DNA from: a virus
DNA: 24,698 bases
Direction: 5' to 3' (one strand)
Virus record (IMG/VR): IMGVR_UViG_3300047562_004594
Coordinates: 1 to 24,698 of that record
Within the stretch, counting starts at the first letter, position 1; every line of letters starts with the position of its first letter. The notes beneath the pieces were generated by a model. It saw only the letters and a program-made list of their open reading frames with translations. It made no database searches and was not told the origin of the DNA. This document shows positions 3,971-6,536 of the stretch, piece after piece. The position numbers and the translations under genes were made by a program.

Positions 3971-3984
3971 GCAATCGCCGTGCC
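3971..3984 (-). promoter_or_regulatory. Sigma-54-like -24/-12 promoter (module R4)
   Basis: Minus strand TTTGGCACGGCGATTGCA matches the RpoN consensus (TGGCACG-N4-TTGCA) at every informative position: GG at 3984-3983, GC at 3972-3971, ten nt apart. The predicted start near 3959 leaves about 20 nt of GA-rich leader to the ATG at 3938. Three dyads lie 74-151 nt upstream, where activator sites of sigma-54 promoters are usually found. An AT-rich TATATAG follows, so an extended -10 sigma-70 promoter is the alternative. Confidence 0.6.
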
Positions 3985-4057
3985 AAACCGAAAAATATTT
4001 TTTGTGCGATTTTTACGGGAAAAACGCTGTGCTATTTTTTGTGCCTAGTTTTTGAGC

Positions 4058-4135
4058 GTAGCAAAACGCTACAGCAGTGTAGCAAAACGCTACGCATAAC
4101 TCAGCCTAAAACAGCAAAGTGTAGCAAAATGCACT
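4058..4135. repeat. Three 15-bp dyads (enhancer-like sites), module R4
   Basis: GTAGCAAAACGCTAC at 4058-4072 and again at 4079-4093, and GTAGCAAAATGCACT at 4121-4135. The unit is an inverted repeat GTAGC-N5-GCTAC. Related sets occur at 5312-5378 and 6603-6669, always between the sigma-54-like promoter and the R element. Expected to bind a dimeric regulator, possibly a sigma-54 activator. No such activator gene is in the window. Confidence 0.7.
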
Positions 4136-4182
4136 ACCCCATATATAGTGTGCCTAAAAATCAGGCACCACAAGACACTCGT

Positions 4183-4265
4183 CGTAAGTCGTTGATACCA
4201 AAGGAGTTACGTCAAATTTGCGGCCGCAAAATCGTCGTAAGTCCTTACGTAGCAAGGGTTTACGG
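4183..4265. repeat. R4, palindromic intergenic element
   Basis: Cleanest R copy: GTAAGTCGTTG...AAGGAGTTACGTCA, a perfect 14-bp palindrome TTTGCGGCCGCAAA in the centre, then CGTAAGTCCTTACG...AAGGGTTTACG. It sits downstream of the gene ending at 4344 and upstream of the dyads and leftward promoter. Unlike R2, R5 and R6 it has no rightward sigma-54-like site before it. Together with 3971-4135 it fills the 405-nt gap between genes. Confidence 0.8.
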
Positions 4266-4288
4266 CTCGCTGGCTGTCATCATATGTC

Positions 4289-4336
4289 AACCGGCTGGTT
4301 CAGCCGGTACAAATGTACACCCCCACCACAGAGGGG
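4289..4336 (-). repeat. Three-hairpin 3' element, copy 2
   Basis: Minus-strand order: CCCC...GGGG, GTACATTTGTAC, ACCGGCTGAACCAGCCGGT. Near-identical to 2733-2780 and in the same place: gene end on one side, R element on the other. The third stem is the strongest (seven pairs). No U-tract follows. Confidence 0.65.
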
Positions 4337-4343
4337 TCGAGTA

Positions 4344-4655
4344 TCAATCCCCCATAAAGGGGGACATCTCGTTTTCGGACAGGCTGGCATATTGCATAGC
4401 CAACGCTTCCACCCTTTCGCGAGAACCGGGCTTGCCAACCTTGAACCGCATACGATCCTCACCCCCCACAAGGCGGGGGTCAGCTTTTTCTAGTGTACGC
4501 TTGGCCAGTGTACGCATAGCCTTGCGATTGAACTTCAATACCTTCTCACTGCGAATCGTACCACCATCGGCGGTAGTCTTGTCGCACGGAATAGCGATAC
4601 CACTGAAGCACAGGAACGCTTGACGCTTTGCATTTTCGATGATTTCAAACTTCAT
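4344..4655 (-). CDS. Small basic hypothetical protein, 103 aa
   Basis: Begins MKFEIIENAKRQAFLCFSGI. It is rich in Lys and Arg in the middle (RSEKVLKFNRKAMRTLAKRTLEK) and ends SENEMSPFMGD. No family recognised. The basic helix could contact nucleic acid. The frame is open upstream to 4739, but the start at 4655 is chosen because the cassette promoter (4687-4714) and the GAAAGAGAGAAAGAAA leader precede it. It is followed by the three-hairpin element and R4, so it is probably the last gene of its unit. Confidence 0.7.
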   Translation of the reverse strand: MKFEIIENAKRQAFLCFSGIAIPCDKTTADGGTIRSEKVLKFNRKAMRTLAKRTLEKADPRLVGGEDRMRFKVGKPGSRERVEALAMQYASLSENEMSPFMGD

Positions 4656-4686
4656 TTTCTTTCTCTCTTTCTTTCGTGTTGAGTGT

Positions 4687-4714
4687 AGTCTACCAAAAAA
4701 ACTTTTCTTGTCAA
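4687..4714 (-). promoter_or_regulatory. Sigma-70-type promoter for the 103-aa gene
   Basis: Minus-strand TTGACA (4709-4714), 16 nt, TAGACT (4687-4692), five nt after the upstream stop codon. A CCCC...GGGG hairpin spans the stop. Confidence 0.75.
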
Positions 4715-4719
4715 TCCCC

Positions 4720-4893
4720 TCAGTTGGGGGATACTGCATATTCCTCAGTCAACACTTCGCAGTGTTCACGACAATCGGGGCAGATTTCGTAGCAGATATG
4801 CTCATCGCTCATATATGCTCCGCAACAATCGCTCATATACAGAACGTTCATTTCGTAATCGGCGTAATCGGGACGGGGATCGGGGCAACTCAT
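4720..4893 (-). CDS. Cys-rich zinc-binding-like small protein, 57 aa
   Basis: Begins MSCPDPRPDYADYEMNVLYM. Residues 23-45 read CCGAYMSDEHICYEICPDC then REHC, so cysteines fall at 23, 24, 34, 38, 41 and 45 with His at 32 and 44. This spacing fits a compact treble-clef or knuckle zinc site of a kind common in small phage proteins. No enzyme motif is present. The ATG follows GAGAGAGAGAAAAA, with promoter TTGACG-N16-TAGACT upstream. It may bind nucleic acid or protein; which one is not visible. Confidence 0.7.
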   Translation of the reverse strand: MSCPDPRPDYADYEMNVLYMSDCCGAYMSDEHICYEICPDCREHCEVLTEEYAVSPN

Positions 4894-4922
4894 TTTTCTC
4901 TCTCTCTTTCTTTCTTTCTTTC

Positions 4923-4950
4923 AGTCTAGCAAAAAATCCCGCCGCGTCAA
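4923..4950 (-). promoter_or_regulatory. Sigma-70-type promoter for the Cys-rich gene
   Basis: Minus-strand TTGACG (4945-4950), 16 nt, TAGACT (4923-4928), six nt after the upstream TAG stop. The only cassette promoter with a one-base change in the -35. Confidence 0.65.
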
Positions 4951-4956
4951 GCCCCA

Positions 4957-5424: not shown

Positions 5425-5440
5425 TATCCGAGCACATTAG

Positions 5441-5526
5441 CTGTAACTCCTTATGTAGCAAGCACTTACGTCAAATTTGCGGGCGAATTTTTGTCGTAAC
5501 TCCTTATGCCACAAGGGTTTACGTCA
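5441..5526. repeat. R5, palindromic intergenic element
   Basis: Units GTAACTCCTTA...AAGCACTTACGTCA and CGTAACTCCTTATG...AAGGGTTTACGTCA flank the core AAATTTGCGGGCGAATTT, which is a dyad allowing one G-U pair. It lies just past the 3' end of the 49-aa gene. With the dyads and two sigma-54-like sites it fills the 350-nt gap between genes. Confidence 0.8.
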
Positions 5527-5531
5527 ATCTT

Positions 5532-5681
5532 TCAGAGAATCGTACCATCCCCCCTAATGCGGTAGTATATGCCACCGATACTGTACAAACTTATACCCTC
5601 GCCCATATGCTGTACAAATGTAGCACTGTACCCGTGTCGAGCAACTAGGCGGCGAACGGTATTCTGTACTTGAATCGTCAT
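5532..5681 (-). CDS. Small basic hypothetical protein, 49 aa
   Basis: Begins MTIQVQNTVRRLVARHGYSA and ends YYRIRGDGTIL. A basic N-terminal helix is followed by beta-like segments. Its ATG overlaps the TGA stop of the 71-aa gene (TGATG), and GGGAG seven nt upstream acts as ribosome site inside that gene, so the pair is translationally coupled. It ends six nt before R5. No family recognised. Confidence 0.6.
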   Translation of the reverse strand: MTIQVQNTVRRLVARHGYSATFVQHMGEGISLYSIGGIYYRIRGDGTIL

Positions 5682-5896
5682 CACGAAACTCCCATGTAGT
5701 CTGCATTTTCGCAGCAGTAATCGTAAAACATATCGTTCAACACTTCTTCATAGTTTGAATCGGTCAACCTACGATGAGCAAGGGTAGATTCGCACTCAGC
5801 GAAAAACTTACCAGTTGAAACTTCGTAAACAATCGTACAGGCCGAAGCCTCATAACCCCAAATCTGAGCCTTAGCATTCACAAACTTCTTCAACAT
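5681..5896 (-). CDS. Small hypothetical protein, 71 aa
   Basis: Begins MLKKFVNAKAQIWGYEASAC. Four cysteines (C20, C34 and the pair in FYDYCCENADYMGVS) are too scattered for a clear zinc site. No family recognised. The ATG follows GAGAAAGAAAG, with promoter TTGACA-N16-TAGAAT directly upstream. It is the first gene of a two-gene unit ending at R5. Confidence 0.65.
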   Translation of the reverse strand: MLKKFVNAKAQIWGYEASACTIVYEVSTGKFFAECESTLAHRRLTDSNYEEVLNDMFYDYCCENADYMGVS

Positions 5897-5922
5897 CTTT
5901 CTTTCTCTCTTTCTTTCTATCT

Positions 5923-5950
5923 ATTCTACAAACTTTTTTCTGTCTGTCAA
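5923..5950 (-). promoter_or_regulatory. Sigma-70-type promoter for the 5896-5532 operon
   Basis: Minus-strand TTGACA (5945-5950), 16 nt, TAGAAT (5923-5928), six nt after the stop codon of the 80-aa gene. Confidence 0.75.
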
Positions 5951-5956
5951 TACTGA

Positions 5957-6199
5957 TCAGTAGTACAGAAAGTCTCGCACCACGTTTCCGTCGCGGTCAA
6001 CCTCGATATACTCACCCTCATCACCACACGGGAAAAAATACTCGATATATCCGGTAACGTCGTTGGCAATGTCGCTGGCAAGAGCCTCATCGAGCAACTC
6101 ACCGCCGATACTGGCAACTCCAACCAACGTATCGGGCGAAGTACTATTCGCACCATACAGGAACTCAACCAACTCGTCTCGGGTGTTTACGGTTATCAT
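5957..6199 (-). CDS. Small acidic hypothetical protein, 80 aa
   Basis: Begins MITVNTRDELVEFLYGANST, with a helical middle (GGELLDEALASDIANDV) and an acidic beta-like end (EGEYIEVDRDGNVVRDFLYY). No family recognised. The ATG follows GAGGAAACC. Almost the whole leader between the -10 box and the ribosome site is eight GAAA repeats, so its translation or transcription could change with repeat number. Confidence 0.68.
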   Translation of the reverse strand: MITVNTRDELVEFLYGANSTSPDTLVGVASIGGELLDEALASDIANDVTGYIEYFFPCGDEGEYIEVDRDGNVVRDFLYY

Positions 6200-6208
6200 G
6201 GTTTCCTC

Positions 6209-6240
6209 TTTCTTTCTTTCTTTCTTTCTTTCTTTCTTTC
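6209..6240. repeat. (TTTC)8 tetranucleotide microsatellite in a 5' leader
   Basis: Eight perfect copies of TTTC (GAAA on the coding strand) fill the interval between the -10 box at 6241-6246 and the GAGGAAACC ribosome site of the 80-aa gene. Other leaders in the region have shorter GAAA runs (three to four copies). It is outside the coding frame, so slippage would alter spacing and leader length, not the protein. Confidence 0.9.
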
Positions 6241-6268
6241 AGTCTAGCAAAAAAACTTTGTCTGTCAA
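6241..6268 (-). promoter_or_regulatory. Sigma-70-type promoter for the 80-aa gene
   Basis: Minus-strand TTGACA (6263-6268), 16 nt, TAGACT (6241-6246), 17 nt after the upstream stop codon, with a CCC...GGG hairpin in between. Confidence 0.75.
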
Positions 6269-6285
6269 TCCCCCCTATCGGGCGA

Positions 6286-6483
6286 TCAGTCTTCCGACAT
6301 GATCTTCACGATGCTGATTTCGGTAGCGTCAGGATATTGACGCTGAACGCGAAGTTGAGCATCGACCCACGAGCGATAGCGGGTATCGAGTTTTCCGGTG
6401 TACACTTGGCCACCGCTCACGAAACTGATTTCCCAACCGAGAAAAACTTGAGCATGGCGACGATAGGTGTTTGAAGTTTTCAT
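6286..6483 (-). CDS. Small basic hypothetical protein, 65 aa
   Basis: Begins MKTSNTYRRHAQVFLGWEIS. Core FVSGGQVYTGKLDTRYRSW, a helix (VDAQLRVQRQYPDA) and a final strand. Its layout resembles the 74-aa gene at 4957-5181. The start at 6483 is chosen over the longer open frame because GAGGAAAGAAA precedes it and the sigma-54-like promoter's predicted start (about 6511) lies inside the extension. No family recognised. Confidence 0.65.
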   Translation of the reverse strand: MKTSNTYRRHAQVFLGWEISFVSGGQVYTGKLDTRYRSWVDAQLRVQRQYPDATEISIVKIMSED

Positions 6484-6522
6484 TTTCTTTCCTCTTTTCT
6501 TTCTTTCTTGCCATATATAAAT

Positions 6523-6536
6523 GCACATACCGTGCC
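6523..6536 (-). promoter_or_regulatory. Sigma-54-like -24/-12 promoter (module R6)
   Basis: Minus strand TTTGGCACGGTATGTGCA: GG (6536-6535) and GC (6524-6523) are ten nt apart. The predicted start near 6511 gives a GA-rich leader of about 28 nt to the ATG at 6483. Flanks match the copies at 3971 and 5232. Confidence 0.58.

Follow-up and report, generated by a model that had tools for sequence, protein, structure and literature searches.

Candidate sigma-54-type promoters with enhancer-like upstream dyads before small genes in a group of uncultured phages

RNA polymerase carrying sigma-54 normally needs an ATP-using activator to initiate transcription, and a gene behind such a promoter is therefore silent until a signal arrives. 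In this work, we analyzed three sites of this type on the minus strand of a viral sequence (IMG/VR record IMGVR_UViG_3300047562_004594; 24,698 bases, hereafter the window, to whose whole length all position numbers refer). The sites share with bacterial NtrC-type enhancer and sigma-54 promoters a GG-N10-GC core, upstream dyads, and an enhancer that is possibly common to divergent promoters. Unlike those systems, they belong to a phage-family module that stands before varied small genes, and neither a sigma-54 nor an activator was found in the phage. The LuxO-activated qrr promoters of Vibrio likewise pair a sigma-54 core with dyads whose sequence type and distances are similar; there, the LuxO consensus is TTGCA-W3-TGCAA, with V. 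fluvialis sites at -119 and -89 (PMC11443567), and the LuxO site of V. cholerae qrr1 is ttgcaaaatgcaa (PMC10328515). A published link between phages and sigma-54 exists for Pectobacterium phage Q19, in which a sigma-54-like protein was proposed based on weak structural similarity (HHpred E 0.67; PMC7693777). That report concerns a protein, whereas the window has candidate promoters with enhancers, and a search of 23 contigs gave no sigma-54 DNA-binding domain. None of the open-access papers searched described a set of sigma-54 promoters with enhancers carried by a phage, and earlier reports may exist. The mechanism is known from bacteria and the carrier is unexpected; the apparently new elements are the dyads of the enhancer, a module shared across the phage family, and the movement of this module between genes.

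The three sites are probably promoters of the sigma-54 (RpoN) type, with a separate enhancer upstream of each. The sigma-54 reading, put forward in a preliminary description of the sequence, is supported at the level of sequence by the spacing, the consensus fit, and the upstream dyads. All three sites read TGGCACG-N4-TTGCA or TGGCACG-N4-GTGCA with zero mismatches, and GG and GC are exactly 10 bases apart. The sigma-54-type -24/-12 cores, all on the minus strand, are at 3970-3986 for promoter 1 (TTGGCACGGCGATTGCA; site TGGCACGGCGATTGCA at 3985-3970, TGGCACG-GCGA-TTGCA; predicted start at about 3959), 5231-5247 for promoter 2 (TTGGCACGGGGTGTGCA; site TGGCACGGGGTGTGCA at 5246-5231, TGGCACG-GGGT-GTGCA; predicted start at about 5220), and 6522-6538 for promoter 3 (TTGGCACGGTATGTGCA; site TGGCACGGTATGTGCA at 6537-6522, TGGCACG-GTAT-GTGCA; predicted start at about 6511). 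These cores fit the published sigma-54 consensus YTGGCACGNNNNTTGCW, equivalent to YTGGCACGNNNNTTGCWNNw (PMC2848651). The 10-base spacing of GG and GC within TGGCAC-N5-TTGC was found at these sites, and promoters 2 and 3 read GTGC, not TTGC. In the left 7.3 kb of the window, TGGCACG-N5-TGCA was found three times, against zero in 300 dinucleotide shuffles of that region, and it is absent from the other 17.4 kb. The conserved flanks reported earlier, a AAAAATATTTTT-like tract and TATATA, are present as well. Two points of the preliminary description required correction. A distance of 20-40 nt to a start codon applies to promoters 1 and 3 (about 33 and 40 nt from the -12 C) and not to promoter 2 (about 51 nt), and the three listed sites, all present, belong to a larger set that includes plus-strand sites at 1659, 5409, and, in degenerate form, 6700. 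The genes that follow the three promoters, all on the minus strand, encode proteins of 65 aa (3741-3938), 74 aa (4957-5181), and 65 aa (6286-6483).

For comparison, we fetched 80 related IMG/VR loci with terminases 78-100% identical to that of the window, some from contigs of 190-230 kb. The spacing of the core is strictly kept among these relatives: TGGCAC-N5-TTGC occurs 83 times in the 80 loci, whereas the same pattern with N4, N6, and N7 occurs 0, 1, and 17 times, and 200 permuted versions of it gave a mean of 1.2. Variation in the core is mostly C/T at position 7 and A/G at position 8, and the middle is variable. In the relatives, 107 of 117 occurrences of TTGGCA[CT][AG]-N4-TTGC lie outside open reading frames (ORFs) of at least 100 aa, though ORFs of this size cover 83% of the DNA. 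In IMG/VR as a whole, the 18-mer TTTGGCACGATATTTGCT matched 53 stretches and the same letters reversed matched none.

Compared with these loci, the three sites are the visible end of a conserved module of approximately 200 bp that two related clades of uncultured phages share. In what we call class A, the sites have the same orientation as the genes; after them come TATATA, a purine-rich leader, and an ATG that is usually 20-28 nt past the predicted start. Two or three dyads of the form TGTWGCAAAATGCWACA lie upstream. Their centers are near -106/-126/-170 in most phages and near -98/-118/-151 in window promoters 2 and 3. On the minus strand of the window, three enhancer-like dyads accompany promoter 1 (4057-4136; centers at about -106, -127, and -169, i.e., 4065, 4086, and 4128), promoter 2 (5311-5379; centers at about -99, -118, and -151; the middle one is TTGCAAAATGCAA), and promoter 3 (6602-6670; centers at about -99, -118, and -151; the middle one is TTGCAAAATGCAA and the outer one is a perfect TGTAGCAAAATGCTACA). 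Candidate enhancer-type sites, recognized from the sequence only, lie in the range expected for an enhancer-binding protein, approximately 80-200 bp from the start. Across 1.19 Mb, 23 of 27 strict dyads (T[TA]GCA-N3-TGC[AT]A) are upstream of class A promoters, and relaxed dyads numbered 136 versus 13 in shuffles. Adjacent dyads are commonly 19-21 or 42-44 bp apart (about two and four helical turns), with spacings of 12 and 33 bp also observed. In loci L024 and L056, the entire dyad set is 11-12 bp farther from the core with its internal spacing unchanged. An IMG/VR search for GCAAAATGCWAC-N66-96-TTGGCAC-N5-TTGC returned 36 stretches, and the same search with one extra spacer base returned none. 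When 16 diverse modules were aligned, the invariant columns were mostly in the dyads, TTGGCAC, TGC, and TATA. An IHF consensus between the dyads and the core was not found.

The middle dyad of window promoters 2 and 3 is identical to the qrr1 site ttgcaaaatgcaa. The LuxO consensus TTGCA-W3-TGCAA is matched by TTGCAAAATGCAA at 5332-5344 and 6623-6635 of the minus strand; the remaining dyads differ from it in at least one position, and the match is one of sequence only. In contrast to the qrr promoters, the genes here are phage protein genes, and there are usually three dyads, extending out to -170 and mostly longer (TGTWGCA-N3-TGCWACA). Neither LuxO itself nor Vibrio is implied.

The module apparently moves between genes. 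Class A modules stand before unrelated small proteins from phage to phage, and near-identical modules are also present in a sister clade, with a terminase that shares only about 45-58% identity with that of the window. At least one small-gene family is apparently under class A control in locus L019 and sigma-70-driven in the window, the family match being made by eye. A protein 54% identical to the product of the promoter 2 gene is encoded in locus L127, likewise after a class A core. The module had no match among named phages or plasmids. An Rfam search returned nothing. A functionless repeat, one sequence copied three times with a chance likeness to sigma-54 promoters, is an extremely improbable explanation: promoters 2 and 3 do share a 198-nt repeat (79%), but promoter 1 has a different dyad spacing, and both promoter 1 and distant phages keep the core and the dyads as the rest diverges. 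Neither the shuffles nor the control patterns in IMG/VR yielded such sites, and a chance origin was rejected based on the shuffles and the spacing controls. The leaders of many small genes, including that at 6205-6243 of the window, contain GAAA repeats of variable length, which are possibly prone to slippage.

The reading that TATATA is the true -10 element, used by the host sigma-70 or by a phage sigma-like protein encoded at 7773-8456, with TTGGCAC...TGC as the site of an activator or repressor, is unlikely. TATATA is strongly conserved, and the 7773-8456 product has a weak match to sigma-70 region 2 (PF04542, E 0.0012; phrog_1740, E 7e-5). However, the offset between TATATA and TGC shifts by about one base among homologs while GG-N10-GC is fixed, and this alternative, also raised in the preliminary description, came out as the weaker of the two. 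The sigma-54 reading is the best one and is strengthened by the relatives, and a layout of GG-N10-GC with distant dyads is of the sigma-54 type. Elsewhere in the window, eight small genes carry TTGAC[AG] 16-17 bp from a TAGACT-like -10 and score 9-11 of 12 on a simple sigma-70 consensus score; an example is TTGACA-N17-TAGAGT at 3707-3735 (minus strand), before the gene starting at 3682. By the same score, the three genes in question reach 8 of 12, the best scores at class A sites overall, mostly 8 of 12, come near those of shuffles (mean 7.8), and no good -35 box was found at the three promoters. In G012 and G013, two long relatives, TATAAATA is scarce upstream of genes, and TTGACA-type words and TGGTGTATT are enriched instead. 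Late promoters of the T4 type, in which a gp55-like sigma recognizes TATAAATA at -10, were rejected: the sites have TATATA instead, and TATAAATA is seldom found upstream of genes in these two relatives. A search for PF00940 (single-subunit phage RNA polymerase) gave no match, and control genomes gave none either. The TGGTGTATT word enriched upstream of the G012/G013 genes (L095-L116) could be part of a phage promoter. The gene at 7773-8456 possibly encodes a phage sigma factor, and the next gene (8446-9276) has a weak match to a T5 D5-like regulator.

A second group of sigma-54-like sites, class B, is mostly oriented against the genes, often with a leftward TTGACA promoter 31-81 bp downstream of the site in the direction of that promoter, the site thus being upstream of it. 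In the window, class B sites on the plus strand are found at 5409-5425 (TTGGCACAGCATTTGC; divergent from promoter 2 and beyond the common dyads), at 6700-6716 (ATGGCATACGGTTTGC; degenerate and divergent from promoter 3), and at 1659-1675 (TTGGCACAGTATTTGC; adjoining another palindrome module). For approximately half of the class A promoters that have dyads, a divergent sigma-54-like site lies 189-232 bp upstream, beyond the dyads, so that one enhancer could serve both. Class B sites occur in tandem 26 bp apart or as tight inverted pairs, some directly before an intrinsic terminator, and CTGCCATTTTGGCAG repeats or an imperfect palindrome of 80 nt frequently lie beside them. Such sites may act as operators, as silent docking sites for polymerase, or as promoters of antisense or structured RNA. 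In loci L038 (531-4218) and L120 (2054-4550), class B sites were observed in tandem 26 or 38 bp apart and as inverted pairs, beside CTGCCATTTTGGCAG repeats or shortly before an intrinsic terminator.

Two points weigh against sigma-54 promoters with enhancers. The tandem, inverted, and pre-terminator arrangement of class B is odd for promoters, and the dyad phasing is only suggestive, since the sequences share ancestry; the relatives are related by descent and are not independent, so that phasing statistics are not a formal test. The class B arrangement, with copies directed away from genes and often close upstream of a TTGACA promoter, would also suit a core that serves as the operator of a DNA-binding protein from the phage or the host, its likeness to sigma-54 sites being coincidental or inherited from a promoter. 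We consider this quite improbable for the set as a whole: the substitutions track the sigma-54 consensus (mainly C/T at position 7 and A/G at position 8, the middle being variable), and class A replaces a sigma-70 promoter, keeps a fixed distance to the leader, and carries enhancer dyads. For class B, the operator reading could still hold.

An imperfect palindrome of about 80 nt is present in six copies in the window (117-196, 1681-1762, 2632-2711, 4185-4264, 5444-5523, and 6732-6811), approximately one per operon. The copy at 4185-4264 is about 200 bp upstream of promoter 1, and those at 5444-5523 and 6732-6811 are upstream of promoters 2 and 3. Each consists of paired CGTAAGTCSTTA...TAAGSACTTACG dyads with regular mismatches. 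When four of the window palindromes were folded as RNA, the predicted stability of two greatly exceeded that of shuffles (z about -5) and that of the other two did not, which makes an RNA role only a possibility.

Under the sigma-54 reading, host RNA polymerase with host sigma-54 would form a closed complex on TTGGCAC...TGC. The phased dyads 100-170 bp upstream would be occupied by an NtrC/LuxO-type enhancer-binding protein of the host, which would reach the core by looping and spend ATP on melting the TATATA stretch. Transcription would start about 12 nt past the GC, and one short gene or operon would be expressed. Many other island genes appear to have sigma-70-type promoters, and only a subset would then be under host signaling input. 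The sequences show the motif with its fixed spacing, the conserved dyads and where they lie, the lack of a good -35 box, and no sigma-54 or activator of the phage in the contigs searched; protein binding, the identity of the activator, the start point, the timing, and the host are inferences. If the scheme is true, a phage with accessory genes under sigma-54 reads host physiology during infection, and these small genes are turned on only in a particular host signaling state. Tentatively, and as a proposal that we find rather doubtful in its full extent, a widespread large-phage lineage may have co-opted an enhancer/sigma-54 circuit of the host, probably one of the NtrC/LuxO kind, and may use it as a mobile cassette by which accessory genes are gated; divergent sites on the same enhancer would transcribe antisense or structured RNA over the 80-nt palindromes.

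No Sigma54_DBD (PF04552) was detected in the 23 contigs, which may be incomplete, and the motif G[AS]FTG[AS] was not found in the related loci examined. Hits to PF00158 were considered as candidate enhancer-binding proteins and rejected: those of about 300 aa that were inspected are RuvB, and a large G435 frame reads as a ClpA/C-type ATPase. A sigma-54 system of the phage's own thus does not appear in the contigs searched, within the same limit of completeness. With neither of these proteins detected in the phage, the simplest inference is an activator supplied by the host. The dyads are taken as pointing to a DNA-binding domain of the NtrC/LuxO group, not to Vibrio. They resemble sites of that group, and the proposed link to nitrogen, stress, or motility regulators is not established.

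The leads to the host are weak and disagree. Contigs bearing the terminase were found in alphaproteobacterial, flavobacterial, and SAR202 metagenome-assembled genomes (MAGs), which conflict with each other; the first two carry rpoN. The nearest ribonucleotide reductases are those of Agrobacterium/Sinorhizobium jumbo phages (57-60%). A dyad search in 398 genomes from the phylum of the alphaproteobacterial MAG gave scattered single matches, and none of the 12 examined was near a sigma-54 site. For a phage group without cultured close relatives, the promoters are a testable handle on the host and the signal.

The left 7 kb of the window is an island of small leftward genes, and beyond about 7.7 kb the genes are rightward and include those for the terminase large subunit, the portal, and a fiber-like protein. 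None of 10 island genes checked had a Pfam family, and one of the 10 had a weak PHROG match of unassigned function. The window has no close relative and no DNA match among named phages; its terminase is about 24-33% identical to theirs, and its capsid-like protein had no named-phage match. In G012 and G013, the site-bearing region has a G+C content of about 42-49%, compared with genome averages of 35-36%. Consensus matches at 12 or more of 13 scored positions cluster at 57.8-62.3 kb in G012 (nine of nine) and at 39.0-42.8 kb in G013 (eight of nine). The 224-kb G013 also carries a tmRNA gene (tag GNTQLALAA; L105, 12600-12952), several tRNAs elsewhere, and a gene whose actin-like product belongs to the Pfam Volactin family (E 3e-63; L104, 13577-14578).

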